Part shown: piece after piece, positions 16,201 through 40,600 of the stretch
Layout: each line of letters starts with the position of its first letter
Position numbering within the stretch: the stretch's first letter is position 1
DNA from: Tachypleus tridentatus
Lineage: Eukaryota; Arthropoda; Merostomata; Xiphosura; Limulidae
Assembly (NCBI RefSeq): GCF_004210375.1
Contig: NC_134825.1
Coordinates: 72,779,558 to 72,843,557 of the forward strand
Direction: 5' to 3'
DNA: 64,000 bases
Program-made: the position numbers and the translations under genes
The notes under the pieces: generated by a model
Told to the model about the DNA's origin: nothing
The model's database searches: none
Seen by the model: only the letters and a program-made list of their open reading frames with translations

Positions 16201-19200
16201 ACATAAGTTATAGAGAAACTCTTCCAGGAAACCGTGATTTGTTAAGTAAAAGAGTTTAGCATAATATTTACATAAAGTTTTCATACTAAGTGCTCCACTT
16301 GTCACCTTTCAAAACCCATTCAAAGAGAGATGTTTTATCAGTCTAGGACTACAAAAATGTATAATTAAGAAATAATAAAGCAATTACATCAAGACAACTT
16401 ATTTCCAATAAAAAAAAAGATTAATTTTACAAATTTTAGAGACCGCAATAACGGTCGCAAGTTTACACTATTATTTGTCATGACAGTAAAATCTAATTGA
16501 AATTTGCAGATAAACATCTTCAGGCACATTTTAAGAACTGCCTGCTCTAAATAGAAGATAGTTTCAAAGTAGCTTATTCTACGAAAAACTAGGTTGTGAG
16601 TACTATGAGCAACTCTTGTGGAGGTCTGGGATTATCTGTCATTTACAAACATCTATTAGCTTAAAATAGACCACTGTTTTTAGTCTAACCATAAACTGAA
16701 CACGTGCACCATGAAATTTAAAGACTTGGAATTCTCGATACTTATTCATATCTTAAGAAAAGTATCAGCTGTGAAGAAACACACCTACTTATAGACAAAA
16801 ACTTGACGAATTAGGCTAAAGTTACAGTGGATGTTATTTATTAACTCTGCTGTGATAACTATCTTTTCAACATTTTAAACATTTTTATTTACTCAGTTTC
16901 ACGTATCGAGCAATCTTTATGAACTTATACATATGTAAGATGATTGAAACGAAGTTTTTAAAGGCATAATAACTTGTGATCTTTTAAAGCTAGTAACTTT
17001 TACCTTCAATAATTTAGCTATACAAAAATAGCTAAAATAGTAAGATTCTCGCTAAATTTCACTCATATTAAAATTTCTAGTTTATTATTGAAATACGTTT
17101 AACAGGTTATTTGTTTAAAAAATTCAAAATGCAACCATACCTACCAATTAGACGAAATTAAGGCTTCTACTTGGTTCCCCGTATAGTTATGACTAGTTAA
17201 AATACGAAAAGAAAATGCCTAGTATATTTATAACTTAAAATGTTTAGGCTAAAATAACTTAATACATTTCTGTTATTGCAGTATTAACTATATTTTATAC
17301 AATTAAAAATCGAACATACGTATTTTACAAAATTGAACGAGACACACAAAGACAGAAGTTTTAGTGTTCATTTAATCAGAACTTTTACAATGTTTTAAAC
17401 TTATTGGCTGAAACTTTCATGGATATTTTCCGCCATTTTTTGATGCATAACGAAAAATGTCAAGATATATTCGTAAAACTTTCAATCAACAAAAAATATT
17501 ATCGCACGATAGAAACAAAGTATCGATTTTATTGGAAATAAACAATGTTCTAGAGAAGGAATTTTTTTGTTCCCGTCAGTGAAAATAAACCTTGCTTAAG
17601 GTTTGGCTTAAAAGGTGTTGGCATAGATATTTTACTGTTGTTAACGTGGTTTTAATGTCAATGACACACTGTTTGGTTGTCATGGAAAAAGCAAAATCTG
17701 ATGTCCAGATATAACAATGGGCAGCTTTAATTCACCCACAACAAAATATATAATACTCTGAGACAAGACTTTTAATATTTGAGAACTATAATCTAGTTAT
17801 TCAAAACTTAGACCTTACATTGATCACTTCTCACATTACTACTACTAAGTTTTCACGTGCATCCCAATAGAAAGATCAATATAATCTTCCAGTTATTATT
17901 ATAATTCAAGATACTAAGAAAGACTTACAATAAATAGCTGATAAATTACACACAAAATAACCCGAGCACTTTGGAGTGTTCACCCTTCTTCTTCAGGATA
18001 CAAAAAAGATACTTTACTTTCCGAAAGCACTCGGTTTACCTGGTCTAATGTTTTTCACTTATTATAAATCTAAAAGGGCCTGGCGTTAACCATTCACCAA
18101 ACGTGGGATTGAGAAACGTTTTACCTGACCAGCAGTGTCACATAGCTGCAATCTGATTGGTTGATTGTCGACTGTCACCACCGCTAGAAAATACATAAGC
18201 AAATGTTAAAACACTAACACTTGATTAGAAAGCACGAAATTTCATATTAGTAACTGGAACTAAAAACAATTTAATGCATGTAGTAAAGTTCAAAATGTGC
18301 AACAAATTACTTAGTTATGTCACTATTTAATCGTTAAGTCAAATAAAAAAAAGATTAAATAATACAACAGAGTATTCTACGCCTATCATAACAGGAAACA
18401 AATCACACGAGCTGAAAAATCCTGACTTTCAAACGTGCTGATTAAAATACCCTCAACCTACTTCGTAGAAGCTGAGTTTGCAAATTATTATTTTTTGTAT
18501 ATATGCACCTACATACATACTGAAGTCTTTTGTTGCATATTTATTGTTAAGCGTAAAGCTACACATTGAACTAAACGTACTTTATCTACACGGGTATTGA
18601 AAAATCCGGTTTTTAGTGTTATAAACCTCCAGATTGCTGCTGAGACGCTGGTGGAAGAAGGGGGAAAGGTGGGGCGAATGGCAGACAGAAGTTGACGAAT
18701 TTGAATTAGTTATCCAAGAAGAAACAAAAGTTAAATAGAAACAACTAAATTTTATTTTATAACAACTTGATATCACAGTAGATGTGAAGATTTAAACACA
18801 ACTTTTAAAAATATGTTACTATTATTTATTTATTTTTAAACAAACATACGTGAAAATAACATTAGGTGTTAGTACTAAACAGTATTGTAGCCTACATCTA
18901 ACATCAAAATTTCAAACTTCTCTGTCGGACGTGTATCGGTTAAAAGAACAACAAAGACACACACAAGTAAACTAACTAATCGAAGATATTTTTCACGTCA
19001 TCAGATTTATCGAAGTTGTTTGTTTGCTTTTAGTAAAGCACAAACCTACACAGTGAGTCACAGCGTACCCGACATCCGTATCGAAACCTGGTTTCTAATG
19101 TTACAAATCCACTTACTTACCCTTCCACCACTGGGGTACCGCCCAAGTCTTTTTAATATACTCAATAAATTATAATGTGATTTAGCTTTCATTAGCGTTT

Positions 19201-19668
19201 GGTATAGCCAAAATTTACTTATCACAGGAGAGTAGTAGTGAGTAAAGGCGTTATTATCTAAATGAGAAATGAATAAACGCCATATTCTCCGAATAAGATG
19301 TGGGTAAACAGAGCGTGTGCCCTCAACTATAATACTGTTCTGTATCATAAATTGAAAAATAGATAAATACATACATATATATACAATATGACTGAGAAGC
19401 AACCTTAAAATGATACCAAACACTTACAATACACTATACAAACGAAGCTTAAATATATATATATAATATTTAACATACCAGAATAGTTGTCAAATGCCGT
19501 AGGAACATATTCTGTTGGATAGCCGTTAGTTGTATAGCTTACTATAAGACTCGTTTTGCCTACAGCTCCATCACCTACCAATACGCACTTTATCTTACTG
19601 ATATTATTTTCAGTTTTAGATTCGAATTCCGACACAGCTCTTGCCTCTTCTCGTATTAAAGGTGTCAT
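707..19668 (-). CDS. RHOU: RhoU/RhoV (Wrch/Chp)-type Rho GTPase, three exons
   Basis: Joining minus-strand exons 19668-19479, 18183-18125 and 1237-707 gives one frame of 259 aa with GT-AG introns and matching phases. Visible GTPase motifs are the P-loop GDGAVGKTS (residues 32-40), effector region [10 protein letters not shown] (54-63), DTAGQ (79-83), a TQCD base-recognition motif and ECSSLT. The TQxD form, the wording of switch I/II and a C-terminus ending [10 protein letters not shown] point to the RhoU/RhoV branch, whose members act in adhesion, polarity and actin control at membranes. Human RhoU is 258 aa by recall and ends in CCFV, a palmitoylated rather than prenylated tail. Here two residues follow the CCF. 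The N-terminus (about 27 aa before the GTPase fold) lacks the proline-rich extension of vertebrate RhoU. The ATG at 19668 is chosen because an in-frame TAA lies 9 codons upstream. RhoV is the main alternative name. Confidence 0.9.
4376..5280 (+). mobile_element. mariner (Tc1/mariner, D,D34D-type) element, internally deleted, 905 bp
   Basis: Terminal inverted repeats of about 30 bp (left CGAGGTATGTT...ATACGCGGACT, right complement CGAGGGCTGTT...ATACGCGGACT) are flanked by TA at 4374-4375 and 5281-5282, the usual mariner target duplication. The interior encodes the N-terminal paired-like helix-turn-helix half of a transposase from about 4574. It then jumps at AAKFVPR to the C-terminal part, where the last catalytic block [12 protein letters not shown] is split by a frameshift. 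The central region with the first two catalytic Asp residues is gone, so it cannot encode an active enzyme. Confidence 0.92.
4574..5217 (+). pseudogene. mariner transposase, deleted and frameshifted
   Basis: The frame begins [20 protein letters not shown] and keeps the DNA-binding domain, including ERPGRPSTS and the second helix-turn-helix ([13 protein letters not shown]). The family is about 345 aa; here roughly 150 central residues are missing after AAKFVPR. Downstream a run of C puts [16 protein letters not shown] out of frame. A TAG replaces a sense codon near 5132, and the frame still ends with [10 protein letters not shown] and GEYFEG as in intact mariners. Confidence 0.88.
5586..5840 (-). 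mobile_element. Long tRNA-derived SINE, minus orientation
   Basis: It has the family order seen elsewhere in the window, read on the minus strand: head with box B-like GGTCGCGGGTT, body with ATTCGTTGGTAAAAGAGTAG and GATGACTAACTGCC, and tail CTCGTGTAACTTTGCGTG. The tRNA-like head is diverged at its 5' end. Confidence 0.85.
6140..6790. promoter_or_regulatory. Cluster of three TGACGTCA sites in Rho intron 2
   Basis: Exact palindromic CRE/ATF sites occur at 6141-6148 (within the 10-bp palindrome ATGACGTCAT), 6740-6747 and 6783-6790. The last two are 35 bp apart in a slightly GC-richer patch. Whether they act as an enhancer is inference. Confidence 0.35.
7460..7566 (-). mobile_element. Short tRNA-derived SINE, minus
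   Basis: On the minus strand it reads as the short family: box B-like CCGGGTTTCGATACCCGTG followed by a tail containing the complement of AGCTACACAATG. The head is partly rearranged. Confidence 0.7.
7731..7851 (+). mobile_element. Short tRNA-derived SINE, plus (near-complete copy)
   Basis: This is the clearest copy of the short family: box A-like GTGGCTCAGTGGTATATC, then GCGGACTTACAACGCTAAAA, box B-like GGGTTTTGATACCCG, and tail ATAGCCCATTGTGTAGCTTT followed by GTGCTTAAT. It lies about 170 bp from an opposite-strand copy. Confidence 0.85.
10270..10362 (-). mobile_element. Short tRNA-derived SINE, minus
   Basis: Minus-strand copy with box B-like GGGTTCGATTCCC and the tail complement ATTGGGCTATCTGT. 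It is moderately diverged from the plus copy at 7.7 kb. Confidence 0.75.
10664..10933 (+). mobile_element. Long tRNA-derived SINE, plus, with 12-bp target duplication
   Basis: A full-length copy from GCCCGGCATGGCC through GTTCGAATCCCC (box B) to CTCGTGTAGCTTTGCGCGAA. It is flanked by exact 12-bp direct repeats ATAACTGAAGTA at 10652-10663 and 10934-10945, direct evidence of retroposition. Confidence 0.92.
12711..12905 (-). other. Unassigned coding-like patch
   Basis: A minus-strand stretch of 64 open codons ([20 protein letters not shown] and on) is richer in G+C than its surroundings, and the same frame continues upstream past one TAA. I recognise no family, it has no clear splice sites, and it lies inside the Rho intron. 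It could be a decayed exon or chance. Confidence 0.2.
13813..14090 (-). mobile_element. Long tRNA-derived SINE, minus
   Basis: Complete copy on the minus strand, ending at its 5' head with the complement of GCCCAGCATGATC and at its 3' side with a T-rich run that is the complement of an A-rich tail. It abuts a short-family SINE at 14.1 kb. Confidence 0.9.
14102..14198 (-). mobile_element. Short tRNA-derived SINE, minus
   Basis: Read on the minus strand it has box B-like CCGGATTTCGATACCTG and the tail complement CAATGGGTTATCTATGC. It sits directly beside the head of the long SINE, so the two families are in tandem, same orientation. Confidence 0.75.
18125..18183 (-). CDS. RHOU: Rho GTPase coding exon 2 (59 nt, switch II DTAGQ)
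   Basis: A 59-nt exon between a CTAG acceptor and a GTAA donor encodes AVVTVDNQ...LQLCDTAGQ, the strand pair leading into switch II. With the one base carried from exon 1 it makes exactly 20 codons. It was found by phase and family match, being too short to stand out as an open frame. Confidence 0.9.
18543..18652 (-). mobile_element. Short tRNA-derived SINE, minus (diverged)
   Basis: A copy in Rho intron 1 with a degenerate box B (complement of CGGGTATTGAAAAATCCGG) and tail complement AAAGCTACACATTGAAC. Confidence 0.65.
19027..19137 (-). mobile_element. Short tRNA-derived SINE, minus
   Basis: Second copy in Rho intron 1. On the plus strand it shows ACACAGTGAGTCACAGCG and CCGTATCGAAACCTGG, matching tail and box B of the short family. 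Confidence 0.7.
19479..19668 (-). CDS. RHOU: Rho GTPase coding exon 1 (P-loop, switch I)
   Basis: This exon carries the start Met, the acidic N-terminus, the P-loop and most of switch I. It ends one base into an Ala codon at a GTATGT donor. A TTG-initiated extension of seven codons upstream is open but stops at a TAA, so ATG at 19668 is the natural start. Confidence 0.9.
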
Positions 19669-20070: not shown

Positions 20071-20452
20071 TCGCAAGGCCAGCAATGCTATCAAGTAAAC
20101 ACAAAAACTTGTGGTTTAGGTGATGGGCTAGCTAACGTCAAATATTTTCATGCTTCTTTTATAACTAATGAAATTACTCTTATTATTTATGATAAAAATA
20201 TTTCTTTTTTCTAATAATTTGAAGGTGTAATAAACGTACGTCTTTTTTCATGAAAATAAAAGTAAGAAGGCAGTTAAATTTGTTATTAAAAACGATAGTG
20301 GAAAAGTTTTCTTGTGAAGTTTTCTCCCTCGTAAGTTAAATTTGTTCGATTTTAACTTACAAATCATCAGTGCTACAGTGCGCTGTAGAATTCGTTCTGT
20401 AACTCTACCTGTGATATCGACAAAGCGTAAAGCAGTTTGTGTTACAGCTTGT

Positions 20453-20724
20453 GGCCCGGCATGGCCTAGCGCGTTAAGGCGTGCGCTTCGTAATCTGAGG
20501 GTCGCGGGTTCGCGCCCGAGTCGCGCCAAACATGCTCGCCCTCCCAGCCGTGGGGGCGTTATAATGTGACGGTCAATCCCACTATTCGTTGGTAAAAGAG
20601 TAGCCCAAGAGTTGGCGGTGGGTGGTGATGACTAGCTGCCTTCCCTCTAGTCTTACACTGCTAAATTAGGGACGGCTAGAACAGATAGTCCTCGAGTAGC
20701 TTTGTGCGAAATTCCAAAACAAAG
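20453..20724 (+). mobile_element. Long tRNA-derived SINE, plus, with 12-bp target duplication
   Basis: Full-length, CpG-rich copy starting GGCCCGGCATGGCCTAGC. Exact 12-bp direct repeats GTTACAGCTTGT flank it at 20441-20452 and 20725-20736. Many intact CpGs suggest a young or unmethylated copy. Confidence 0.93.
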
Positions 20725-21081
20725 GTTACAGCTTGTAAACTGATATTTGGTATTCACAGCCAAATAGCACTTATACTACACATAGGCTTAACGATCAAAT
20801 ATTGATCGTTAAGATCCCAAGTTCGGCCATAGGAAACTCTAATTGAAAGATGTTTCACGAGTTGTAGGATAACCGGTTAACAGCACCAAACATCTCTTTC
20901 TTACTTTTATCGGAACAGCAAGATTGACTTTCCTAATTATAAAGTTCCCACAGCTGCACATGCAGAACCTTGAACCATCCGATGCTAATCATTAGGCCGC
21001 GCTTGTCCTTGTCAAGAATAGCTTTGCAGTTTATATTGAAGAATTTTCACATTGGCATTTTATTCCGAAATATAAGATAGG

Positions 21082-21359
21082 TTTGGTTTCCTATTTTTAA
21101 ATTTCGCACAAAGCTACACGAGGACTATCTGCGCTAACCGTTCCTAATTTAGCAGTGGAAGACTAGAGGGAAGGCAACTAGTCATCACTACCCACCGCCA
21201 ACTCTTGGGCTACTCTTTTACCAAAGAATAGTGGGATTGACCGTAACATTATAACGCCACCACGGCTGAAAGGGCGAACATGTTTGGTATGACGGGGATT
21301 CGAACCCGCAACCTTCAGATTACGAGTCGAGTGCCTTAACCCACCTGCCCATGCCGGGC
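21082..21359 (-). mobile_element. Long tRNA-derived SINE, minus
   Basis: Full copy read on the minus strand from GCCCGGCATGGGC to the tail CTCGTGTAGCTTTGTGCG. It lies about 350 bp from the plus copy at 20.5 kb, the two forming an inverted pair. Confidence 0.92.
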
Positions 21360-22041
21360 ATCTTACATTTTGACTTTCACCTTATGTAAAAATATTGTTA
21401 TTTTTTGGATGAAAGTGGTAGTCATATTATATAATGTGAACTGAAAGAAGTATCCCCAATCAGATGAGACCCACGAGGTGAGTTTTAATGGTAATTTGAA
21501 ACAGCACCAAACCACTGCGGAACTGTGAAAAGGAAGTATGAAGTAATTTCGGCATTTTTATTTGATAATTGAAAATAATAAACACACACTTTTTTAAAGA
21601 CGAAAAGCCTATTTCTTTCATATTTAATAACATTTGACCCTCTTCTGTCCCCTTTAACTCTTCGTTTATCTATTGATCCTCCCTCGAGTTAAACAAGAGC
21701 TTATCTTCATGGAAGCAACTTCTCATAAAACTATAATAATATACATATATCATTGCAGGGTATTGATTTAACTGTATTTCTTTAAAAGTGGTCTCTACAA
21801 TATTCCAATATCCGTACCTACCTCTATACACGTACACACATGAGTGCATCTTAAAAGTCTAAGTTTTTCTTTTTTTTTTAAGACCCAAGCTCTTCCATTA
21901 GACCCAATCACATAAACATCTTTACTTTATATAAACGTAAGATTAGCCATCTCTTTCTCTGATTCCAAATGTCTCTCTCATGCCATTTCGTGTCATTATA
22001 TTCTTAAAATTCGAAATAATTAAAATTGTTTCCTGTCTTAT

Positions 22042-22275
22042 AGGCACTCGACTAGTAATCCGAGGGTCGCAGTTTCGAATTCCCGTCACACTAAACATGC
22101 TCGCCCTTTCAGCCGTGGGGGCGTTATAATATTACAATCAATCCCACTATTCGTTGGTAAAAGAGTAGCCCAAGAGTTGACTAGCTGCCTTCCCTCTAAA
22201 CTTACACTGTTATATTAGGGACGGCTAGCGCAGATAGCCCTCGTGTACTTTTGCGCGAAATTTAAAACAAACCAA
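22042..22275 (+). mobile_element. Long tRNA-derived SINE, plus, 5'-truncated
   Basis: It starts inside the head at GGCACTCGACTAGTAATCCG, lacking the first ~20 bp, and a short internal stretch near 22180 (the GGCGGTGGGTGGTGATG block) is deleted. The tail is complete. Confidence 0.88.
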
Positions 22276-24117
22276 GGACAATGTAGGAATAACATAAGTC
22301 TCAAAAGATTAAATCTTGATATCTTAAATGAGCGGGTTGCTGTAGGGAGAGCAGAGTTCTTCTGTGGCAAATATGTCCCCACGTCACTGTGCTGGACAGA
22401 TCTTTGCCAAAAAAGGGAAAATGTAATCTCGATCTTTACCTATATTTGACCCTAGCTTTCTATTACATTTTCTTTTCAAATTTCCCTACCTCAAACAGTA
22501 AGCCATGTTTCATATATGATAAGCAAATACGAACTCGTTTTTTGATTCTTTTTCGTAACTACCCAATTTAAATTCAAAGTAACAAGCTACTGAATTCAGT
22601 TTAGAATTTCACAATAGTCAACTCTGACTTAAAACTCCTCCTCGTATATAATGGCACTCAAAATTCTACTTCATTAGGAATACTTTGAAAAGCGAATTAT
22701 TTAGCTTTTCAATCCTCCAAATATTTACAGACATCTAACAAATATATTTATTAATTTGACGCTGAATTTCATAAGAGCTTAAAATGTAAAATAAGTTGAA
22801 CTATCAGGAGTTATTTCATTTCACGTTTTCCATTAGTCTCAGTATATGCATGTGGTGAATATTTCAGGAAGAAAGATCAAGCAAAACTTACGACATTTGT
22901 GACACTTCATGACAGTTTACTGAAGAATTTCAGTATATACATACTAAACTAAATATTGCACAAAAACGATTTTATTTTTACTATTATTAAATTTATTTTA
23001 TTACTGTTGTTTAAATGTGTCAAAATACGTAAACATCATAGTTTTCAATGTATTATTAATGTAACTAGCCAATTTTTGAAATATGAAATAACTGTTCAAT
23101 GCTAATATGTAGCTTTGGTTGAAACATAATTTGTGTATCCTGCTTACAGTCTTATAAGAAGTTCAATTCGGTTATATTTGTCATTAAAAATAAAAGACAA
23201 GCTACGTGACACACTTGCCATCTAGTGGGAATAAGGTACAATCGGAGATAGTGCGTTTTTTAAAAAAAACATACGTATTAGACAATGGGAATAGAAAAGC
23301 AGTATAGATTCTCAATACGTATATATATATATATGGAGAGAATGAAGATATATGGGGAGGTTTTAAATACATTTTCTAAATATAAAATCACAACGATTCA
23401 CAATTTACATCGCTAGTATAATCCCTAAAGGTAAACGAACACAAATACATCGTAGTCTAATTCCACAACGTATTAATTTAAAAAACAACATTAAAATAGG
23501 TTTCGTTTTGGTTTAAATACCTTAGATTTTGATGAAGGTTAGTTTACATTGTTAGTTTTTAACTAAAATGAAAGAGATTAATGATCTATTAGAAACAAAA
23601 CCGACGCATTAAGAACCGAAAAGTAAGTTGATATTTGCATATCGGCTAATGTGATGTAAAGTTTACAAGCATCATTTGTATGGATTTTTGCGTATAATAA
23701 CATTTATATTCTGATTAACCTGCTCGCGTAACGTTTGTTTATTTCTCTCTCTTTTCAATTACGATTTGTGGTGAGAATAATTTAGAAATTAAAATATTTT
23801 AACTGAAGAAAGTTTGAACCTAGTACCCGATTGATATTTCTTCCATGTCGCTTTACTTTTGTTAGTTAGTGAGCTTTAAACTTTCTCTTCAACTAGAATT
23901 ATTATTATATTTATTAATAACTTTAATTTCGAAATGATCGCGTTGTGTTTTCCCCATGTTTAAAGACTATTCAAATAATAATAACAAATAAACAAATACA
24001 TATACTGTTATGCACAGTTTTAACATAAGTGTTCTGAATAATAAATCACAATGCTGTTTGTATGTCTGTTGCAATTTATATAAAGGTGATAAAGTAGCAT
24101 CAGAAACGCAGAGTAAT

Positions 24118-24890
24118 ATATGCATTTTCAGTGATGTCGAGAAAACCCACTTGTAGAGAAAGATATACATGTAAAAATGGCTCATTTGGGTTGAGAAAAT
24201 TTTTACGTAGAGGAATGAACAACGTTTCGACCTTCTTCGGTCATTGTCAGGTTCACAAAGAAAGAAAGAGGTAACTGACCGGAAGCTGACCACATGTTTG
24301 AAAGGGGTTGTGTAACTGAGCGTCGGAATGTAGAGGGCGTGCTTAGATATTTGAATATATAATTTTATCTTATTTATTTTATTATTATTATTTATTATAT
24401 TATTTCTAATATAGGTATAAAGGTGTTCATTTGTATTGGTTTATTTTGGGCTTGAGTTGTTGTATAAGTAAGGCTTCTTTAATTTTGCGTTTGTTTACGT
24501 GTGTTTCTTTATTTAGTATTTGAGTGTTTCCTATGGTTATGTTGTGTTTATTTGATTTGCAGTGTTCGAAAACGTGTGAAGGTGACTTTTTATGTTCTTT
24601 GAATCTGATTTCCATTTTTCTACTTGTTTCTCCAATATAGAAGTCGTGGCAGTTATCACATTGTATTTTATAAACAATGTTGGTGTGGTGTTTGTGTAGT
24701 TTTTACATAGTATAGACTTTAGTTTTGTGCCTGGTTTTTGAATAAATTTGGTATTGACTGGAATGTCATATTTTTTACTAGTTTTTGCCAAATGTTGGTT
24801 ATTTTTCTGTTGATGTCGGGAATATATGGTATGCAGCAGTATATGGTTTCCTGATTTTTTGATTCGTTAGATATACTTAATTTTGTTGGT
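24118..24890 (-). mobile_element. Penelope-like element 3' fragment (GIY-YIG endonuclease)
   Basis: Minus-strand remnant of a Penelope-like retroelement. The coding part runs from about 24880 down to the stop at 24427. It has the end of the reverse transcriptase region (IPYIPDINRKITNIW), then CDNC, FYIGETSR, RFKEHKK and a terminal KEALLIQQLKPKINQYK, the order of the GIY-YIG domain these elements carry. A frameshift near 24680 splits it. Below the stop comes an AT-rich 3' region and then a hammerhead-like segment. The reverse transcriptase body is absent, and a long SINE begins just beyond 24890. Confidence 0.85.
24215..24256 (-). ncRNA. Hammerhead-ribozyme-like motif in Penelope sequence (probably inactive)
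   Basis: On the minus strand the 42 nt read GTGAAC, CTGACAA, a hairpin TGACC/GAAGAA/GGTC, then GAAACGTT and GTTCAT. The outer hexamers pair fully (one G-U), and the CUGANGA...GAAA layout with a tiny ACGU third helix resembles the type I hammerheads reported in Penelope-like elements. Here the catalytic G of CUGANGA is A, and stem II has one extra U, so self-cleavage is unlikely. Confidence 0.45.
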
Positions 24891-24892
24891 TG

Positions 24893-25115
24893 GGGCCTGG
24901 CATGGCCTAGCGCGTTAAGGCGTGCGCTTCGTAATCTGAGGGTTGCGGGTTCGCGCCCGAGTCGCGCCAAACATGCTCGCCCTCCGAGCCGTGGGGGCGT
25001 TATAATGTTACGGTCAATCCCACTTTTCGTTGGTAAAAGAGTAGCCCAATAGTTGGCGGTGGATGGTGATGACTAGCTGCCTTCCCTCTAGTCTTACACT
25101 GCTAAATTAGGGACG
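24893..25115 (+). mobile_element. Long tRNA-derived SINE, plus, 3'-truncated
   Basis: Begins GGGCCTGGCATGGCCTAGCG and follows the family to CTAAATTAGGGACG, then stops abruptly and joins Penelope-type sequence (GTGAATCTGACGATGACC). The tail and target duplication are missing. Confidence 0.88.
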
Positions 25116-25117
25116 AT

Positions 25118-25190
25118 GTGAATCTGACGATGACCGAAAAAGAATTCTCAACGCAAACGAGCTGTTTTTACATATATATATGAATTTTAC
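25118..25190 (+). repeat. Penelope terminal-repeat fragment with hammerhead-like core
   Basis: It reads GTGAATCTGACGATGACCGA and then skips to AATTCTCAACGCAAACGAGC and TTTTTACATATATAT, segments of the minus-strand terminal sequence at 24.1-24.26 kb in plus orientation. The CUGACGA core keeps the G lost in the other copies, but the second half of the fold is deleted. Confidence 0.6.
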
Positions 25191-25409: not shown

Positions 25410-26566
25410 GTCCACGAACCTAATTTCACCTATAAATGGATGCCGTGCAAAAGCGTGTGCAAAAACCTGTTTCTGAACTGTAAATTTAAATAACAACAAA
25501 GAAGGCAAAAATAGATTGGAAAGATTAACATGTTGACACGTTAGTTCGGCTCACTCAGGAGGTATTACTGAAAACGTACAGAAAAGAATTGTTACTTACA
25601 AAGATATTTGTTATTTAAATATTTATCATGCATGTTCTGCTTGGTATATAATTTATTGAACACGTGCCATTCTAGTACTCTGTTTGTGCCATATAAACGA
25701 AAGCAGAAATCTAACAGATCATCACAGGGCACCGCTTTCTCACTGTACCGTCAATGATCTTCCCTTAGGTTCATGTGGTATGCTTTTTACTGACCTTGAG
25801 TATGAGAAACAATATTCTTAGATCAGACAGGAAGCACTAAAAATATCGCAATAAATGCTGTTGCACAACTGTAGTTTATAGGATAAAATCTTATACAGCA
25901 AAGAGGCCATGAACTGTCGTAATACTTATCAAAGTATACCAGATACTTAAATACAACGTTATCATCACACTATGCTTGCAGATATTCACTAAAGTGTGGT
26001 ACTTTTCACCATTGAGGTTACTCTTGAAAATAGACTTATTTATTCCCACATCACAGATATTGCTAAATAATGATCTGCACTACAACTGTGGTTGCCGTAA
26101 TATGCAGGCATGTCATTTTTCTACGTGCCTTAATGATATAGGGATTTTTTTAAATATTCATTTATTTAATTTTATGGGATTTTAGCGTAAATACGTGGTA
26201 CAAAAAGTCGCTGAGGTTTTTCTTCTCTATTAACTTTGTTTTTCTGTTTTCTGTAGAAGATAATGTCTAGTCTACCTAAAGAGATAATGTAACAACACAA
26301 AGCATCTGGGTTTAAGAGACTAGTGACTGTAACATTCTTTGCTGGCTGAATCGATAATGTTTGCCTGCAACCAACCAATGTTGTGAGAGAATAAATTCAC
26401 AAGAAGATGTTGTACACTAGACAAATAAACTGAATTTGTCTTTTAAAATCAGCTGCACTTTTTTAGTTCAATTCTACTTGGTTTTCACTTTGACTACTTC
26501 AACAGAAATTCATCTTGGAAAATGGAAAATTGATGAGTTATTTGTTGATTCAGTGGACGCGATCGT

Positions 26567-26682
26567 CAGTGGCGTATTTTGGTAGGGGTTAGAGGGGGCT
26601 CAGAATCAGGGCCCACTAATAATTTTATTATATGTAAAATTACATGGGATGTAGGGCCCACACAACCTTAACTCCACCACTG
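26567..26682. mobile_element. Possible hAT-type mini-element (116 bp)
   Basis: The segment starts CAGTGGCGTA and ends CTCCACCACTG, so its ends are short inverted repeats of the CAGTGGYG type common in hAT elements. The 8 bp outside each end (GCGATCGT and TCTATTGT) agree at 5 positions, compatible with an old 8-bp duplication. No coding sequence. Confidence 0.45.
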
Positions 26683-27341
26683 TCTATTGTCTATTTATTT
26701 ACAATGGTATTCACACTTTTTTCATTGTGTCTAAATAAAGCTTGTTTTCACTCCTCGTCAAACATATTTATTCTGTTTATTTCTCACACAATTTGAAACT
26801 CAATCAAGTTATCAACAAAAGTAGTTTTCTTACTTCCGGACTAAATATTCTCGTATTAGCAAGTCTAACTATTTGAAAATACTATGGGTAGATAGAAAGG
26901 AAATATCATGGTACCTTGAAAGCAGAATTCATTGCAGAGTTTGTTTGTTTTCATTAATGTGTTTAATGGCCCTTGTTTGATCTCTTGTGTTGAAAATAGT
27001 TGAAAATTAATAAGGACAAGAAAAGTAAAACTCGAACACTAAAGTGTCCTATGAAAAAGTGTTAATTAGGATAATTAAAATTACTCTGCTGGTGTTTTTT
27101 TTTAGGCTGATTTGCTTCTAAGTATTTTGAAATAAATTCTCTTGTTCGACACGCACCCAGCGTTAACGATCATCCTTACTTCTCCAAATTAGTTCTTGTC
27201 CTTATTAATTTTATTTTTCGGAAAACACTTTTCAAATCTAATGCTTATTTCGGTTCTTAATGCTTTTCAGTAGGACATCAGCGACACTTGATACCACGAG
27301 TTAGCTAAATGGCATATTCGTAAAATGTTGTTATTGTTTTT

Positions 27342-27456
27342 AAATTAAGCACATAGCTACATAATGGGCTATCTGTGCTCTGCCCACCACGAGTATCGAA
27401 ACCTGGTTTTTAGCGTTGTAAGTCCACAGACATACGCTTGAGCTACTGGGGGGTGG
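27342..27456 (-). mobile_element. Short tRNA-derived SINE, minus, interrupted by a long SINE
   Basis: The minus-strand copy reads through the tail complement ACATAATGGGCTATCTGTGC and box B complement GAGTATCGAAACCTGG to CTTGAGCTACTGGGGGG, where a long-family SINE interrupts its head. About 10 bp of the short element resume after 27736. Confidence 0.88.
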
Positions 27457-27736
27457 TGGTGGCCGGCATGGCCAAACGTGTTAAAGCGTGCGACTCGTAA
27501 TCTGAGGGTCGCAGGTTCGCATTCCCGTCGCGCCAAACATGCTCGCTCTTTCAGCCGTGGAGGCGTTATAAAGTTACGGTCAATCCCACTATTCGTTGGT
27601 AAAAGAGTAGCCCAAGAGTTGGCGGTGGGTGGTGATGACTAGCTGCCTTCCCTCTAGTCTTCCACTGCTAAATTAGGGACGGCTAGCACAGATAGCCCTC
27701 GAGTAGCTTTGTGCGAAATTAAAAAACAAACAAAAA
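27454..27736 (+). mobile_element. Long tRNA-derived SINE, plus, inserted into the short SINE
   Basis: Full copy flanked by an exact 10-bp duplication TACTGGGGGG at 27444-27453 and 27737-27746. The duplicated sequence belongs to the short SINE, so this copy inserted later. Confidence 0.93.
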
Positions 27737-28027
27737 TACTGGGGGGCTGTCGTAAAATGAGAAATGAGTAATATATCCTTGACCACATCACGGCAGTGCT
27801 ACCTAAACAAAGCTCTGCTTAGTCGCACAACGCATTTATAAATCCTCTATTCTCCAGAAGTTTGTTTTTCTTTAACGCCAATAATTTCATATTGCTTTTT
27901 TGCAGCTTTAAATCTGAAAGCACCCGATATTTTATTTAACTGCTATTAGAAGACTATTATTATTGTCTATTCCTTTGCCGGTAGGTGGCGAGTAATTTCG
28001 CTGACTCTCACAATTATTTATATTGCG

Positions 28028-28035: not shown

Positions 28036-29310
28036 GATAATGATGTGTTTATAGAGTTTAAATGTGTGGTCAATTGTTGAAATAGGATTTAATATTTGTA
28101 TGATCGTTTATATTGGTTAATGAAAACAATATATTTTATTCAATTTTGTTTTAAGTTTGTTTATAGTCTAACTGATAATTTTACGGGGGTATGAAACTAA
28201 AGGAAGAATAGAATGATCATACGTTTTAAAATCGATGCGGGAGGAAATAAGCAAAGTTTAGGGCGTTAACGATTAGTTGCCTTTTACGTTTTATTTGGAC
28301 CTCGATTTTTAAGAATGTAACGATAGAAGCTCATGCTTATTATTTACTTTAAGTTTTCTCGATAGAAGTTTTAGTGGTAATGCGAGTATCTTTTGGTTAA
28401 GGGCAGGCTCTATTAATTTAATAGCAAACGATTTTTAATTCAACGTGAAATTTTTCGGTGAAATAGAGAACGACATGGGAAAAAAAAAAAGAATGTTAGC
28501 TTGTGCTTACTCCAAGTTTTCATGCGTCATTATACATTTCAAAGAAAAATTCCACCTTAGAAATAGATCAAAAACAGTTTTTTTTTTTTAACACTTTTAT
28601 AGCAAAACGTATTTAAACTGTTTTAGTAACCTTTAGCGAGTATTTGTAATCTTTAAACTTGTTTGCTTCTGGTATGTCAAAAATACATTTACTTTTGTAG
28701 TACATAAATTGAACGTGTCTGTTTATTTGTGATTGTAGTGATATATACTTTTTAGATTTGTACCATAAAATACCTGAAGTTTTGTAATGATTAAAATAAA
28801 TAAGTTTGTATTAGCAATTTGGAAAACCGATTTCTTTGAATTTCATTGAGTGAAAAAAAAAGTTCATAAATACAAGAAGCTCACATTGATGTGTAGTTTC
28901 TTAAGCTGTTTATTTTATAGGAATAACTACCGTTTGGTAAATGAAATATAATAATTGAAAGACTAATACTATATGATTTCTTACAGAAGAATTCTGAGTG
29001 TGTCTATTCTTCAAGCTTGTATATTTAAAGATCAGTTAAACGTGTTTAAGCAGATCATATGTTGAAAACAAAATGTTAGGTCTTATGTCCAGTTTTGTTA
29101 TTGTTTGTGTTTAAAAGTAGTTTAATTAAAAAATTGTGATATTGAAAGTGTAAGTTATATGCTAGTAAAATGTAGTAAATTTGTGGATTTTAGAAAAATA
29201 AGTAAGAGTCTTGCTGTTTGTTCCAGTTGGTTTCTAGTAATAACCATATGCCCATTTTTCTGTATCAGCCCATAGATGTAGTTATTTTCTGCAGGCATAT
29301 TCTAATAAGT

Positions 29311-29417
29311 ATGGGAATTATATCTTTTGGACTCAAGTTCATCTTTGCCAATGTGCTGTTGATGTTATATATAGCCTATGGCCCAGGGCTTCTTGATATA
29401 CAGCCCATGAAATATAC
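29311..29417 (+). CDS. APMAP: APMAP exon 1: start and transmembrane helix
   Basis: Encodes MGIISFGLKFIFANVLLMLY and GPGLLDIQP, a signal-anchor followed by the short linker typical of the family. A good acceptor (TTTTCTGCAG) ends at 29295, 15 nt before the ATG, so a 5' UTR exon or an upstream coding exon may exist. Ends two bases into a Thr codon at GTAAGT. Confidence 0.8.
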
Positions 29418-31569
29418 GTAAGTATAGAGTCATATCCTGTTTAGTGCTTATAAAGGAATTAGCATCATTTGTATGGTTCAGACTTCCTTTTGTGTACTCT
29501 ATGAAAGAAAATAATAAACACACTTGCTCATACTTCGTGAAAAGAGGGAGGAAAGATACAGTTAACAAGTATTTATGGTAATATGCATACATGTAATGTT
29601 TTCTGATAGAAGATTTTGATCCTAAACTTTGGTTTATATTGATAGTATTAACAGAAAACAAGTTATTTATTAAATTATAATCTTTATGACTGCGAGGCTC
29701 AGACTTAAAAAAATGTTTCTAATATGTTTTTTAACTTTAAATCTATTTTATGTCCATTTTTCAATGTTTAATTACAATACTAGATGAATGAAGCTCAGAA
29801 AGAAACATCTTGAAATAAAATATATCGAAAATATATTTTGAAACATTGTTAATCAAATTAATTGTACTTGTCTCTTCAGTTCTAAGAATTTATTAAGAAA
29901 CAAATGAAGTACCGAAAATAATGAACATTGTATTTTGCAACCTATTTTTGATTGTAGAAAATCTAAACAAAATTATGGGTGCATTCAATTTAAACACAAA
30001 TATAACATCTTATGCAAACTTTACTTATTTAGAAATAAAATATAAGATAATGATTAATTTATAGAACTTAGTGTAATAGACTACATTAACAAGCAGTATA
30101 TAATTTCATCCATAATTTCCTAATAATTATTTAACATGTAACTGCTTATAGAAAATATTTTAACATTTTTTGATAGGAAAATTATGTTTAATTATGTAAT
30201 AACTTTATCTCTAGTTTTTATTATTTCAGTGTGGAATTACCAAAAAAGTTTGAAGGAGTTTTGAAACAAAATGATGCTTTAAATCAAGCAGAATTTCTTT
30301 ATCAAGGAAAAATTTCTGGACCTGAATCACTTGCAGTGTATAAAGGTAAAGAAGAGTTGTTTTTTAAATTTTATTATTATTTTGTGTTTGGGTTTATGAA
30401 CTATGTATAATTCTTATTGCAAATGATTGAGAGTATCAAGTAATATATAAATTTTTAAGTTCATAAATTCTGCTATAAATTGTTTTACTTCATTGGTAAT
30501 TGTAATATTAAATGGAAAATGTTCAATTGTTTCATTGCTCTCAGATACATTTTTTGTTAGCTTTAATTGTGTCTTTACCACTTTCTTTAACCACAGAAAG
30601 TAAGGTATCAGAATATTTAGAATGTACTTCTGAACCTAGGAAATATATATACTGGAACAACTGATGGAAGTATTGTCAAAATTTCCAAAGACAAACTATC
30701 TGTTGTGGCTAAAACTGGAAAAAACTGTGGTAAGTTGAAACATTAGGTTATTTTGTATCTGTTTCCATTAGATAGCGATTGAAAAGATACATATTGTATA
30801 ACACAGTAATAACTTGGAACCTTTATGATTTGATACTGAAAATATTAATAATGTAAAACAATTGTAGTCGATAATTTATGTAATTTTCTTATTGGGAAAT
30901 GTGAATATTTTCACAAGCTAGGTTATGGTAACCTTTAAGGTAAATGATAAATACTTAATGGTTAATAACATTTCAAAAGTAAATTTAATGCACCTTGAAG
31001 ACTAAATCATATTTTATTATTTGAACTAAGAGTTTGGTTGAGCACATTCACTGAAAGTATGTGATATTTTGAATTACCACAGCCCATGAGACAAAGTGGA
31101 AAATCACTAAACTATCACTCATGTTAATAGTACAAAGTGTGTCTGCAGCAGGTTGTTTTGACTTTATGACACACTACCATATGTTTTGACTAAATCTAAC
31201 TTTATAATAAAATAGTATAACTGATATAAATACTACTAGTTAGTTGAGTGACTATTTTTCAAGTTTGTTTCAAGTTTTCATTATGAAATTGGATATCTTA
31301 GTGTGTTCTACTTTTAAACATCAAAAATATATTTATGGAAGTCTCCAGGACATCTATGCTTTGATCCAGTGTGCTTACAGGCTTAAAAATATAAATTTGT
31401 TTTGGGTTTTTTGATCACTCCTATTTTATTGCTATTATCCTGAAAAAATACTTGAGAATTTTAAGTTGCTTTGTAAAACTTTATAGTACATGTTTGATAA
31501 TTACATAAATCTCAACAGTCATTACTTAATTTTGTCACCAGCATGGCATTAATGCATGTTCATTTTGAT

Positions 31570-31644
<75 letters not shown>

Positions 31645-34600
31645 ACAAACGGTAAAGACATGGTTTTAAAACAAGTAATGTGACAAAGTAGAATGAAGTG
31701 ACTTCCAAAGTTAATGTCCTGGATTATCTGTCTCTGCAAATTAGTGGAGAGGCTGGTCCTATAATTTTAAATCCTCTTCTAAAAATACTTTTGGTTGCTT
31801 CAATGTGTCCAGGAAGCTGGTGTCAGTGTACAGCGTGTGGTTTCTGGAAAGCTTATTAAGATATGTGGTTATTAGATTGACCTCAGTCTTCTGCAGAAAC
31901 TCTTGCTAAACGAGAAATTGTGGTGTTGAGCAGAAGTCTGTAATCATGGCTACCAGTTAGGAAAAAAAAAAAAAAGTAATTCTAAAGACATTATTCTAAT
32001 TAGGTACAATTTATGGTCTGTGTATGATTTTACTGTATAAAATTTTGTTTTTCATACACATGAAAGAGTTACCCTGGGAAAGCCCAATTTGTGGAAGACC
32101 TCTTGGGCTGAGATTTGATAAAAAAGGAAACCTGTATGTTGCTGATGCTTATTATGGGATTTTGATGGTCAACATCAACACAGGTTTGTGCAGCATTTTA
32201 CATTTTTTCTATTCTTGTTTTGTAATCTATAGAACTAAACATTTTGATAAGAACTTAAATCTGCCACGCTAAAGCATATTGCTCAAAACAGTAGTTCATT
32301 GTCATTTGAGAGCATTGTATTTTCCCATGATAAATGGTTAAAACCTATTTATACATATTATTTAAGTAAATGTAATATAAATTTTAAAAATTATTTAATC
32401 TCTATTTTTAAACTAATATCTATTATTAGTAGAACTACACCATCTGTATTATGAACTGTGTTTAAAGTTGTTTGAATCTTCTACAACTTTTCTTTATCAT
32501 TATCCTTAATAATCTAGCAAACAATTAAGAAGCCTGTATTTAAAGGTTTTAGTTTTAATGTTACAGCCATTTAACAATTAAAAGCATCAATTTAGGTGGA
32601 ACTGTTATTTTTACAAAATTATACGCAAATAATTTGTGAATGTATGTTAACAGTGGAGCATTAAAAACTGTGCAGTAACAACCTCTACATTAGTGTTCAG
32701 TTCAGTATAGAAAGCAATAACTCCTAAATGTAGCAATATATAACTATTCATTATACATATACTACTTCTTGAAATAAATGTGCATCAGTTAGATGACAGT
32801 TTTTAAGCTGCTAAACATTTTGCTTTTGTTGAATAGACATATTTTAAGATACTGTAAAATATAACATTTTTAAATGTAATTTTATATTTTTAGATAAGTT
32901 AGCTTTTAGATTTAGTGCGAAATTAATACAACTTTTTAAATGCTTCTCTCTCTCAATATATACATCACATAAATATTTTCTTTTTTCAGGACAACTATTA
33001 ACCTACTGAGAAATAATTTGTAATTAAATACTTTAAAATATCTAATTTATTGTACACATTACTTTGAACTAGTTACTACTTTATAACTGCTTTTTATTTC
33101 ATTAACATGTCTGAAGCTCTTTTGGGAAATTGTTTTAAAACAAGCTAAAAAAAATGGATTAATGAGGTCTGTAAAAATTTTCAGGTTTATTTTTCCATTT
33201 CTTTTCTCTTCTACTACATGAAAGAATGTTGTTCAGACTTTTGCTAAGAATGTAAAGTATGGCATTTCTGTTTTTATACGTCTGACATACTTAACAGTTA
33301 AATAATTAGCCTGTTATTAATACAGGGTGTCACAAAAAAATTTGTATACACACTTTGAATGATTATAAATACAATGTTTATTGAGATTTGTCTAGGTTTT
33401 ATAATCCACGTTTAAGAAGACAAGTTTAGAATTTTTGAGCTATCACAGATGTTTGAACTGATGACTGTTCTGATCAAGGCACTGCTGATAATGTGGACAG
33501 ATGGAATTGCAAACTTCATGAATCATTTAATTTGGTATTTAGGTGCATTCTCTTTTAATTGCTACTGGACTCATTGATTGTTTTAGGTTTTGTGCTATAC
33601 ACCTTATCTTTGATGTATCCACATAAAAAAAACAAAAACAAACAACAACAGAGGTGTGAGGTCTGAATGTGGGGGAAATCTTGTTTGGAAACTATGTATC
33701 CTCTGCAGATTTTGCCAGGTACCACTCATAAAATTCAACTCTCCAGTCAGGGTCATCTTCATTGAGGGCGTGGACTAATGCCTGAATAAAACTTTTCCAA
33801 TAAACGGGCTTCAACATATGGTGGACACTTAATTTTGCGATTCCTGTTTCATGGGCTATTTGCTGAACAGATTTTCTTAGAAATTCATGGAGACTTTCCA
33901 ACATCTCTGCTTCTTGTATGGGACTGGTGGATGACCACAGTCTTCCAGAATGCCCTTTATGGATGTCTTGAACAGTTCCATTTGTTTCAGAGTTATCTCT
34001 GATGCAAGTAATGGTGAGTCATGTTGGTGGATCTGTTTGAAACTCCCTTCTAAACCGTTTTTGCACATCAGTTACGTTCTTGCACTTCCAGTAACACTTT
34101 AAGTTAAATTTCCTTTTCTCAAAGCTTAGTCTTGCTTCTGCCATTACTTCACATCAGTTGCACCTGTAAAAAAAAGTTTGAGTGAGTTATGATTCAAAGT
34201 GTGTATACATTTTTTTAGGACACTCTCTACATACTGTGGAAATACTAAATTTATTTAGAATGTTTAAATAAATGGTTGTATTAAAATATAGAACCTTAAA
34301 AATTCTGTTGATAGTTTAATAATGAATGCTTTCTTGAAATGTTCTTAAAAGGACACAAGTTACTTTATAGAATTTTTACCATGAAAACTGTTCAAAGAAA
34401 GTTGTTTAGGAATTACATTTTAAGTTTTCTGTTTCATATTCTTTATACTGGCCCAAACAAGTATAGAATATAGTTTTACAGCCTTTAGGTTAGGCTTGAA
34501 ATAGTTTTCTGTTATTTAAGCTTGGGTGGTGCATTAGTTATTGTGTGTGTCTATGGATCTGAGGGTCCATGTTTCACATAATCAGTGATGATGAGAAAAC

Positions 34601-37600
34601 CCACTTATAGAGAAATATGTGTAGAAACCTGACAATGACCAAAGAAGGTTGAAACATTGTTCACTCTCCCACATAAAAAAAAAAAAATTCTCAACTCAAA
34701 CCAGCCATTTTTACACACATACATGGTTTACATACTTTTGTTGCAAAGGAAAAAAAAATCTGGTCTAGCAGTATGGCAGTTTGTGAATGGATTATGAGAA
34801 TGGTAGTCAAATCCTATTATTCAATCAGAAGCCAAACATTTTGTGGTGGATACTATTGACCAGCTGTTTCCCTTCTAGACTATCAGTTCAAAATTATGTA
34901 TAGCTAGTACAGATAAACCTTGTGTAGGTTTATGTGACTGTTCTATAATTGACTGAATGAATAATTGTTTATTAACATGTACACATGTAATTGTAACCAA
35001 AGGACGTAATTCAAACATGATTCTAGGATGGCATTGATACCAGTTATAAGAAATAGTGGAAGGTGATTTTGTTATTGTATGGTAAATATGTATAGATTAT
35101 GGTAAGGACATCCTCAAAACTGTTTAGTATAAGATATTTAGATTTGTAATTAATTTAATTTTATTACATGGAAATAATATTACTATTCTGTGTAAATAAG
35201 AAGAAAAATGGATCTTCTGTAATTATGTATAACTTAGCTTCTGATTAAGAAAGATTCATTATCTGTTTTTAAAATGATGGACATCAGGAGATCTATTAAT
35301 AAAATACAATATTAATTGTGTTTATAAAATGATCTAAAGCCTTTAGAAAAATTTCAATAAGCATACAGAAACATTCACAAGGTCAATACATTTTACTTGT
35401 AAATATTGTCTTTAAATGCTCTTGTATAAAGCTCGATGCTTAAAGTATTTGCTGTAATAATCAATTATGTTCATTTAATCAGTTAGTTCCTCAAATCTTG
35501 ATACCGAGAAGCAAAACTTAAGGAACATTTGGTGTGTGTGTGTTCTTTAACCAGAAAAATAAAATTGGTAGTGGTTGCTGCTTTCCCTCTATTTAGATAT
35601 CCTTAGTAGCTCTGTCATAAAATAGGGCTACCAGATTTGGATACAGTGGGAATCCAAATTCGGAGCCTTAAATCACAAACTTCACTCAAATTGCTGAAGC
35701 TAAACAAACTTAAAGTAAAACAAAAACTTGTATGGCTAAAGTTGGACAGGTAACAGAAAGCAAGTTCTGTAGCTCTGCACTTAACAAAGAAATATAGTAG
35801 CAAAGCTAAATAAACATAAGCAATGATAACCTTTACTGATTTAATGAAAAAATGATAAAGGCCCATTTTCTCTTTAATTTTCAGTTGCAGGAGGTTATTT
35901 TCCTGCTCATACAGTTGAGTTTGGGGGACTCTGCCTACTTCATAATATTAGCAACAGGATGTACGGATACTATTCCTACAGTTGATCCTCACACTACCCC
36001 TTCCTTAGATGCTGGTACCCAACAAGGAGGTTTTGGATGTAGTTGACTTAATGAGTATGGTCTGCCATGTCCCAGCCATTCTACACCATGGAATACACCC
36101 TCCTTTACCCACTTCTGTGGGATTTATTTATCTGATTGGGATCACTTTCCCAACTTATCCTCTCCCACTCTGATGTGCTCTCTTCCTTTTTTGATATGTT
36201 TATTCATACTATTTATGGCGAGGAGATACCTGTTTCAGAAGTGGTTCAGTACTTCACAGATTATCTGATCTGTTTCTCTCATATACAGAGGTATTTTTAG
36301 ATGCTTTGAGGGATAAATCTTTTTTTTTTTCCCTCTCACTGGTCTCTTTTCATCCTTTAAATGTGGGATTCTAGCTAATCTTGCAAGTGCCTTATTGGAA
36401 GTTATAATTTTCTTAAGCTCAGAGTATTTCAAGTGGGTACTTTCCTTTCCTTATATTTCCAGTTCTCCTCCCTACAATCTTCCAGTGCTTATCTCTTCTG
36501 CAAAACTGTGAAGTGATAGTTCTGTAGTGGCACGTAGTCACGTGTATCATGTGATGGTAGTGCTCCAATTTGAAGGAAAGATGACAATGATGATTTACAT
36601 GAGACGTGTTTAAATCTTTGATTCAAATAGGGGGGTACAAAAGGCTTTTGCTATGTGTTATAAAAAGGTTTGCATATAGAGGGCAGCACAAAATGGGAGA
36701 AGCTAATCTTTGGAGCAAAGAGAAATACATTTTCAGTTTAGGAAAGTTATGACTTTGGTATATCTGCATCTCTAAGTTTTGCATCTTTAACATGTTTAAA
36801 ATTTATTTTAACTTTTATAGAAAACTTCAAAAGTTTTATTACATATTTATGCACATGTTTCCCCAAAACAACAGAAATAAGGTGTGACTTTCTATATTTT
36901 ACAGGTTCTGTTGAAACACTTTTACCAATTTCTACTGAAGTGGAGGGTAAAACAGTAAAGTTTCCCGATGACCTAGATATAGATGAAGAACAAGAAATAA
37001 TTTACTTCTCTGATGGCAGTTATAAATGGCCCTTTAATAGAGTAGCTTATTTTTTATTTGAGTACAGCAATAGTGGTCGGTAAGGGAATACAATTTCACT
37101 ATATGTGGATAGTTAAAAGCAGGGTATAAAATAATGTAGTTGATATATGAAGAACCTTTTAATTTTGTATGTGTTTTAGTTAATATGTATTTTCAGTGAT
37201 AGGTTGTTTTTTTTACAGTGATCAACAAAATACTGAATTTTTAAAAGGAACTGTAAAATGTTGAACTTTAAAAAAACGTGTTTTGATCAATTAAATAGAA
37301 GTTCACTACGTGCAAGTGAAATTTTTTTGATTAGTAAATAAAACTTCCTGAAGAATTTACACATTAATAAATTTCTTTGGTATTTAATGTATAGTTGTCA
37401 AGGTATCATTTTTGTAAAACAGATCTTTTAAATCTGAAATTGTGCTTTCATAAGTTTAGAAATTGAGCTAGAAAACTTTATAGTGTATACATGCATATAG
37501 TAGTTTGTTATAACTTTAAACAATCCAATAAAAAAAATGCTGCCCTAATTGAAAAGATCCCAGGGTCCAAGGTTATAAAATGTACCCTAGGTTTTGGAGG

Positions 37601-40600
37601 TGCCTGCAGAAGTAGGACTTGCATTGCAGTAGGTATACACTGCCTGTCAGTCTTAACCTTCATTCTCCAGTCTAGCATAAGAAATAAGAGTAGTAATAGA
37701 TATAGAATTACAAATAGAAATTAGGAGAGCAACATATGGGTGCTCAAGCTCTCAACATCTTGCATCTGTATCACCCTTCACTATCCATGGAAAGGTGACT
37801 GCTCTCCCAAGTAAAAAAAAAAATTAATTGAAATAAAAATCATAAGGAAATAAGGTACTACCATTTGGGGGTAAGTAAGTTAGACTTGCCTCTTGAAGTT
37901 AACATTCTAGACCCCAGTATGCTAGAATGGCACTAATTGACAGCACAGAAAATCAACTATATCAGCATGAAGTGTCCCATCCAGCTATCCAAACAAACTG
38001 GTACAGCCCCTGCCACAACCCATTCACTAAGTCTACTGTGACTGTCATGTTCTGAACAAGCCTTTATATGTAGCAAGGTGTGCATCTGTATAAAGTAGTG
38101 CCAGGTTGTTAAATGACTTTATAACTAAAAATAATTAGAAATTTGAAGAAACATTTCTCTAATTTTTATTTATTTATATTTATTTAATACATTCTTATAT
38201 TTGTTAGAATTGTTTAATTTTATTTTAAAGTTTCTTTATTTTAAATCCATTAACTATTAACTTTTGTATCAGTATTTCAACATTAATGATAAAATATTGT
38301 AATACATTACAAATTTTACAATATCTGAATAATTGCAAAGTTATAATGCTTATAACTTGTACATATTTTTCTGTATTTGTTTTTTCTTGTAATTCCCATT
38401 TCTGTTTGTTACTTTATAATCAGATATTCTACCTTTGTTTTATTCTTTTATAAAAAAAATACTTAGTAAAGCTTTATCTTCAGTAACTTTCATATTTTAT
38501 TAATACTGCTTTGTAATTATAATGTTGCAATAAATTTTATATTTCGGAAATGTAGCTGTTTCTTGCTTACTTTCCAGATCTTCACTTATTTCTATCAGTT
38601 AATTAAACTTACCTTTTAATTATTATGTATGAACTTGTAAAGTAATTCCTCATGTCTTGACATCAAGTTTATATAAAAAGCCCAAGTGTATTATGTGGGG
38701 GTTCAGTACTACACTAAATAATCTAACTTTCAGTATGCTCAACTTCTTTTTTTTTTTTTTTTTCTTTCATTATCTTTTTCTATCTTTTATCCAGGAAATT
38801 GTTTTTATTCTATAGTCCTTTACCTGTATATAGGGACTTTTGAATTTTAAAGAGTTCTTTCTCTTAAAATATATGCTATCTCTATTTTGCTTATGACAGT
38901 GTTCTAGGTCAGAGCATTAATTTATTTGTGGTTTGTATGGTGCCTGTTTATGACATTTTCCTTTGAGCATATTTCTTTTAATACACATTATTTTTATCAG
39001 ATTTCTTTATTTTGTTTGGCTCATCCAGTGTTTTTTCCTTTTCTAGAGTGATATCTTTTAACCTTAAAACAAAAGAAACCAAAGTTGTTGCTGATGGCTT
39101 GTACTTTCCAAATGGAATTCAGCTTACCCATGATAAATCTGCATTACTAATTGCAGAATGGAGCAATCGAAGAATCTTGAAGTGAGTAGTGACGGAAGGT
39201 ACCTTTTGTGTGTTATTGTATAATTTGTTTAGTTTATGCTAAATGAAAAAAACAGTTGTAAAATGGCTTATTAAATATATTTATTACATAATATTTTTAT
39301 GTATTATAATGACTCAGTGGGAAAAAATAATTTTGTTTGGTGAAAAACATAAATTCTATAAATTATTGGAAGACTATGAGAATCAATGAGAAAGAAATTG
39401 TAAGGCAATTTTTTTTTTTTTTCCTGTGCAAAATTTAGAGACTGAAGCAAAACAAGGTAATCATTTTGTGTATCTTAGTAAAACAAGTACAGTAGTAAAA
39501 CAATTACAATGCTTATTATTTTATTTGTTAGGCTTCAAAATGGCCTGTTTTTATGCTGACACAAGTACACATTTGAACTTGTATACACTTCTCTACATGT
39601 AACATGTCTTAAATCTAAAAATGTGTACTTATTGGCCACATTATCAGGACCCTTACTAAATATTGCTTGGGCCAAGTTTTTGTTGTAAGATTTGCCATGA
39701 TAAAGACTTCACAATATGTTGGTAGGTGGTCTGTATTATACTGTAGTTTACTTAATATTTGCAGGAATTCTTTTGCAGTTTTACATTGAAACTTGTTTAA
39801 TTGGTTTCAACTTTTGCATAAAAATGAAATAGGAAATCTACCCACTTTCCATTATACATATTTAGAAAACTTTCCTTTATACATATTGAGAAAAAACGTT
39901 TTTAGAAATCATTCTAATTTTATAAGCAACATTTTCATACAATAAGCCTGCACAATCATGCTGTGCAACTGAAATAATGTGTTGGTAATCCACCTGTTGA
40001 AAGCAGTTAATTTGTCTGAGCATGTTGCAGCAGGTGCTGCAGGCACTTAACTGATTACACCTTACATCTCCTCATTGTCTGAGCATGTTGTAGCAGGTGC
40101 TGCAGGCACTTAACTGATTACACCTTACATCTCCTCATTGTCTGAGCATGTTGTAGCAGGTGCTGCAGGCACTTAACTGATTACACCTTACATCTCCTCA
40201 TTGTCTGAGCATGTTGTAGCAGGTGCTGCAGGCACTTAACTGATTACACCTACATCTCCTCATTGTCTGAGCATGTTGTAGCAGGTGCTGCAGGCACTTA
40301 ACTGATTACACCTTACATCTCCTCATTGTCTGAGCATGTTGTAGCAGGTGCTGCAGGCACTTAACTGATTACACGTTACATCTCCTCATTGTCTGAGCAT
40401 GTTGCAGCAGGTGCTGCAGGCACTTAACTGATTACACCTTACATCTCCTCATTGTGTTCTATTTTGAGAACAGTTACTCAAATGCTTTGATGGTATAAAG
40501 TCACTTACAAATTTTTTTTAGCAATATTGAGCAACAAACAGTCACAATAGCATTGTTTTCAGTGAAACAGATTTCCAATGATTGTCATTTATATATTTCC

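Follow-up and report, generated by a model that had tools for sequence, protein, structure and literature searches.

At the left of the 64-kb window, the whole stretch of DNA analysed here, lies a gene for a RHOU-type Rho GTPase (positions 710–19,668, minus strand), with coding exons placed by reading near 19.5–19.67 kb, at 18.1–18.2 kb and at 710–1,246. Its product matches Pfam Ras at 2.8e-45, and the best PDB match is 2q3h (Ras homolog gene family member U) with an E-value of 5.5e-87. Head to head with this gene, with the two start codons ∼9.6 kb apart, is an APMAP gene on the plus strand. Its coding exon 1 (29,311–29,417), assigned by reading the translation, has a start codon, a hydrophobic stretch and a GTAAGT donor at 29,418, and continues in phase into exon 2 (30,230). 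The rest of the gene extends from 30,230 to 47,692 and ends in a stop codon at 47,690–47,692; the middle exons, most of whose ends are approximate, are at 30,230–30,345, 30,645–30,736, 32,066–32,183, 36,905–37,082, 39,048–39,181 and 42,833–43,030, and the join of exons 6 and 7 is provisional. The model of exons 1 to 6 matches the strictosidine-synthase-like Pfam families Str_synth (3.4e-23) and SSL_N (1.1e-12), and exon 7 and the last exon, each scanned alone, gave no Pfam match. A second right-hand gene lies tail to tail with APMAP at a distance of 1.9 kb, on the minus strand at approximately 49,569–58,600, and was recognized by reading from leucine-rich-looking open stretches near 58.4, 55.3, 50.3 and 49.6–50.0 kb. 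One of these stretches has a sub-threshold Pfam match (E 0.041) and no PDB match at E 1, and the last exon has no Pfam match. A tRNA scan and an Rfam scan at the gathering threshold returned no match.

Between RHOU and APMAP the frequency of CpG changes in a step, which the analysis confirms as real. To the left (1–28,800) there are 755 CpG at an observed/expected ratio (O/E) of 0.908, and to the right (29,201–64,000) there are 137 at an O/E of 0.169, a drop of approximately five-fold inside a few hundred bases. In a likelihood scan of the 64 kb that accounts for local base content, one change point fits best at 29,042, with a log-likelihood ratio (LLR) of 226, a two-log-unit interval of 28,638–29,177 and a four-log-unit interval of 28,472–29,962; binary segmentation of the window yields no second change point above an LLR of 8. 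When 500-bp blocks were permuted, none of 20,000 shuffles reached the observed LLR of 229, the largest shuffled value being 53. The two-log-unit interval begins ∼670 bp and ends ∼130 bp before the APMAP start codon (29,311). It separates a CpG-keeping domain (1–28,637, O/E ∼0.9 with local dips) containing RHOU and its upstream flank from a CpG-depleted domain (29,178–64,000, O/E ∼0.17) that extends to the end of the window. With SINE, mariner and GIY-YIG stretches masked the left O/E of ∼0.91 becomes 0.867, and with tandem arrays masked the right O/E becomes 0.173. The seven CpG counts made by hand in the earlier note (20, 19, 18, 3, 0, 3 and 5) are all exact on recount, and its placement of the change within a few hundred bases near 28.8 kb agrees with the change point and interval reported here. 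The profile of CpG O/E and TpG/CpA likewise contains the step, with CpG falling and TpG/CpA rising across it.

The low state was said in the earlier note to cover both right-hand genes with their introns, repeats and intervening gap, and the Rho gene to keep its CpG; both statements hold. On the right, O/E is 0.12–0.35 throughout: 0.21 in APMAP exons and 0.19 in its introns, 0.35 in the exons of the second gene and 0.13 elsewhere in it, and 0.12 in the gap between the convergent genes (47,693–49,568), where there are 5 CpG in 1,876 bp. The corresponding values for RHOU are 0.75 in exons and 0.84 in introns, exon ends being approximate in all three genes, and the flank from RHOU to the step has an O/E of 0.94 with repeats masked. 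The left side is not uniform. Its deepest dip, at 26,001–27,000, has an O/E of 0.47, with 13 CpG where the left mean would predict 25.4 (uncorrected P 0.005); other dips are found at 1,001–3,000 and 16,001–17,000 (0.56–0.61) and at 10,001–11,000 and 13,001–14,000 (near 0.68). The segment 28,001–28,714 lies slightly above the left mean (20 CpG vs 12.6, uncorrected P 0.03), and the low side has 5 CpG vs 3.1 in its first kilobase (P 0.21). Neither a CpG peak at 28.0–28.7 kb nor a graded onset of the low state is claimed.

A SINE-like repeat, tRNA-like by reading, occurs on both sides of the step. Long copies on the left lie on the plus strand at 10,634–10,945, 20,430–20,740, 22,042–22,289, 24,866–25,177 and 27,441–27,745, and on the minus strand at 5,573–5,830, 13,804–14,117 and 21,071–21,388. 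The density is uneven, with eight long copies within 22 kb (5,573–27,745) vs one clear partial copy, and one weak match, in the 35 kb on the right. This SINE may resemble those of horseshoe crabs, and both it and some of the transposon peptides may resemble arthropod sequences. A 39-letter core pattern of the SINE, with one ambiguous position, had no match in the viral_contigs or genome_contigs collections, whose answers may omit near records. The first repeat scan, which found the SINE on the left only, raised the possibility of a cross-species chimera. Searches of higher sensitivity then detected decayed copies on the right as well, and this candidate was rejected. Together the eight long copies keep 99 of 146 family CpGs, ranging from 6/19 to 15/18 per copy, with low retention in the 10.6-kb copy (6/19) and the 13.8-kb copy (12/20). 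The partial copy on the right (34,810–34,937, plus strand) keeps none of six, four having become TG and two TA. In the left copies transitions affect CpG bases and other C/G bases at the same rate (33/286, 0.115, vs 102/900, 0.113), and in the right copy they affect 8 of 13 CpG bases vs 10 of 54 others, a small sample from one copy. This rate comparison leaves aside three short tail matches on the left at 7,807, 27,324 and 25,321 (1/13 family CpGs kept), taken, without proof, to be another subfamily, and the weak match on the right at 50,863 (0/4).

Repeat families within the low side carry the same signature of decay. Diverged interspersed pairs are found there at 43,843–45,000 and 53,883–55,116 (68% identical) and at 37,533–38,356 and 45,040–45,869 (76%), and a left-right search at E 1e-3 found no relatives of either pair on the left. 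The low side also has two tandem arrays, at 52,063–53,456 (41-bp unit, ∼33 copies) and 40,012–40,455 (63-bp unit, ∼7 copies). In eight alignments of right-hand repeat pairs TG is opposite CA 22 times, and each of the seven other double-transition classes occurs 0–6 times; in 45 alignments of left-hand pairs the corresponding counts are 7 and 2–25. The Fisher value for right vs left is 2.7e-9, which is overstated in that aligned pairs share ancestry. An ancestral CpG that decays on different strands in the two copies gives a TG:CA mismatch. Seven alignments cross the step (E ≤1e-3), and in them 11 distinct right-hand positions lie opposite a left-hand CpG: none is CG, seven are TG, and CA, TA, CT and CC occur once each, so that 9 of the 11 are transition products. 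The right-hand stretches of these alignments have no CpG. The comparison draws on a single SINE copy and a second repeat, both within 34.6–34.94 kb, and the right-hand sample is small. The second repeat, at 24,081–24,300 on the left, has its right-hand relative at 34,575–34,721 in two opposite-strand pieces, in which the left-hand CpGs are mostly TG or CA. Left-left alignments also differ at CpG, with 298 CG:CG vs 199 CG:TG/CA pairs. In this small right-hand sample the SINE and the second repeat agree that the CpG state of a repeat follows that of its domain.

Depression of right-hand CpG by composition alone, through a difference in G+C content or selection and with no methylation involved, is scarcely credible. 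The G+C content of the right side is indeed slightly lower (0.305 vs 0.34 on the left, and 32% for the window as a whole), but O/E already corrects for base content. Among the ten symmetrised dinucleotides, the log2 change across the step is −2.39 for CpG and +0.22 for TpG/CpA, and the remaining eight shift by at most 0.14; GpC is constant at 1.03 on both sides, and the O/E of TpG+CpA rises from 1.09 on the left to 1.30 on the right (1.26 with tandem arrays masked). A fall confined almost wholly to CpG, together with the rise of TpG/CpA, indicates a CpG-specific transition rather than a difference in base composition, and the TG:CA mismatches and the decay of the shared repeats require such a transition.

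A misjoin in the assembly near 28.8 kb, linking loci of different CpG history that belong either to one genome or to two species, is unlikely, although it has the larger share of what probability the alternatives retain. It would account for a single sharp change and for a SINE that is dense on the left and sparse on the right, and no coding exon was found to span the step, as a join within one genome would allow. At least two repeat families are nevertheless common to both sides and CpG-decayed on the right, the non-CpG dinucleotide profiles of the two sides are near-identical, the window is without any N, and a random join would need to land no more than ∼700 bp from the start codon of a gene. 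Together these observations argue against an origin from two species; for a join inside one genome, the shared repeats, the matching composition and the position at a gene start go only as far as making it unlikely. Methylation aimed at repeats, with the right side a repeat-rich methylated block in which the genes are bystanders, is more improbable still. Although the right side does have tandem arrays (40.0–40.5 and 52.1–53.5 kb) and diverged interspersed pairs, the left has more recognisable SINE copies and is undepleted, CpG on the right is about as scarce in exons as in introns, and no listed repeat covers 28,638–29,177, just beyond which a gene starts.

We consider it highly probable that the step is instead a fossil, the edge of a domain of gene-body methylation that covers the two convergent genes in the germline. 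CpG would be methylated in germ cells by DNA methyltransferases over the APMAP transcription unit and the gene convergent with it, and the enzymes would probably be guided by elongation-linked chromatin. Elongation-linked marks are the usual proposal for the guidance of gene-body methylation. Among such marks H3K36me3 is described as typical of methylated gene bodies (PMC11292947). Deamination of methylated C to T over generations would then have led to the loss of CpG on the right, while the promoter side of APMAP and RHOU would have remained unmethylated and so retained theirs. The earlier note had read the right-hand genes as methylated in the germline, the Rho gene as not, and the edge as lying near the APMAP promoter. 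The sequence evidence supports this reading, because the change is CpG-specific with a gain of TpG/CpA, TG:CA mismatches abound on the right, shared repeats have decayed there only, exons and introns are similarly low, and the start codon is just inside the low side; judged by that start codon, the edge would lie near the promoter. More tentatively, and with less than even confidence, the edge may have kept to within a few hundred bases of the 5′ end of APMAP throughout the lifetime of the diverged right-hand repeats. In that case the sequence would record a germline chromatin boundary of long standing, with a methylated pair of convergent genes on one side and an unmethylated signalling gene on the other.

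The locus is best explained as a clear instance of mosaic methylation, of a kind already known in invertebrates, including Ciona, a spider and a horseshoe crab. For sperm of Ciona intestinalis, the published account describes sharp boundaries between methylated and unmethylated domains, a dip in methylation ahead of transcription starts, and 157 gene pairs arranged tail to tail, separated by more than 500 bp, each pair sharing one uninterrupted methylated domain (PMC3827831). The present locus resembles that description in its sharp edge, its depleted transcription units with a putative promoter side that keeps CpG, the intronic repeats that share the state of their gene, and a single domain spanning genes placed tail to tail. 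In Ciona the evidence is from CAP-seq and bisulfite sequencing, whereas here the domain is read from CpG decay; and the Ciona edge is described as unrelated to the first methionine, whereas here, in a single case, it lies 130–670 bp before the start codon. For Limulus polyphemus the genome report gives a bimodal local CpG content, with ∼30% of sequences depleted and TpG/CpA anticorrelated with CpG, at a G+C content of 33.3%, and its authors suggest germline methylation of part of the genome (PMC4066314). The G+C content of our window would fit a Limulus-like genome. The Limulus result is a genome-wide statistic on short scaffolds, whereas the edge described here is at the level of the gene. 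In the spider Stegodyphus dumicola, bisulfite sequencing is reported to show about equal methylation of exons and introns, and transposable elements within genes adopt the state of the gene (PMC6409797); exons and introns are alike and repeats follow their domain here as well, as judged from CpG decay. A survey of arthropods reports that methylation tends to fall on genes that are conserved and evenly expressed, and that in the majority of species it is higher in exons than in introns (PMC7343188). In contrast to that majority, APMAP exons and introns have similar O/E, which counts against the proposed explanation. Although the underlying biology is established, it appears that one raw stretch of sequence can reveal a germline methylation domain together with its boundary, with repeats on either side serving as an internal control and without bisulfite data, and this could be of use in species that have no methylomes.

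Two further traces of mobile elements lie on the CpG-keeping side. The open frame at 4,458–5,051 is a mariner relic, in which a scan of the residues encoded by 4,458–4,937 gave a match above the cut-off to Pfam HTH_48, the helix-turn-helix of Mos1-type transposases. The open frame at 24,430–24,702 is GIY-YIG-like, scores just under the Pfam cut-off, and is perhaps derived from a retroelement.
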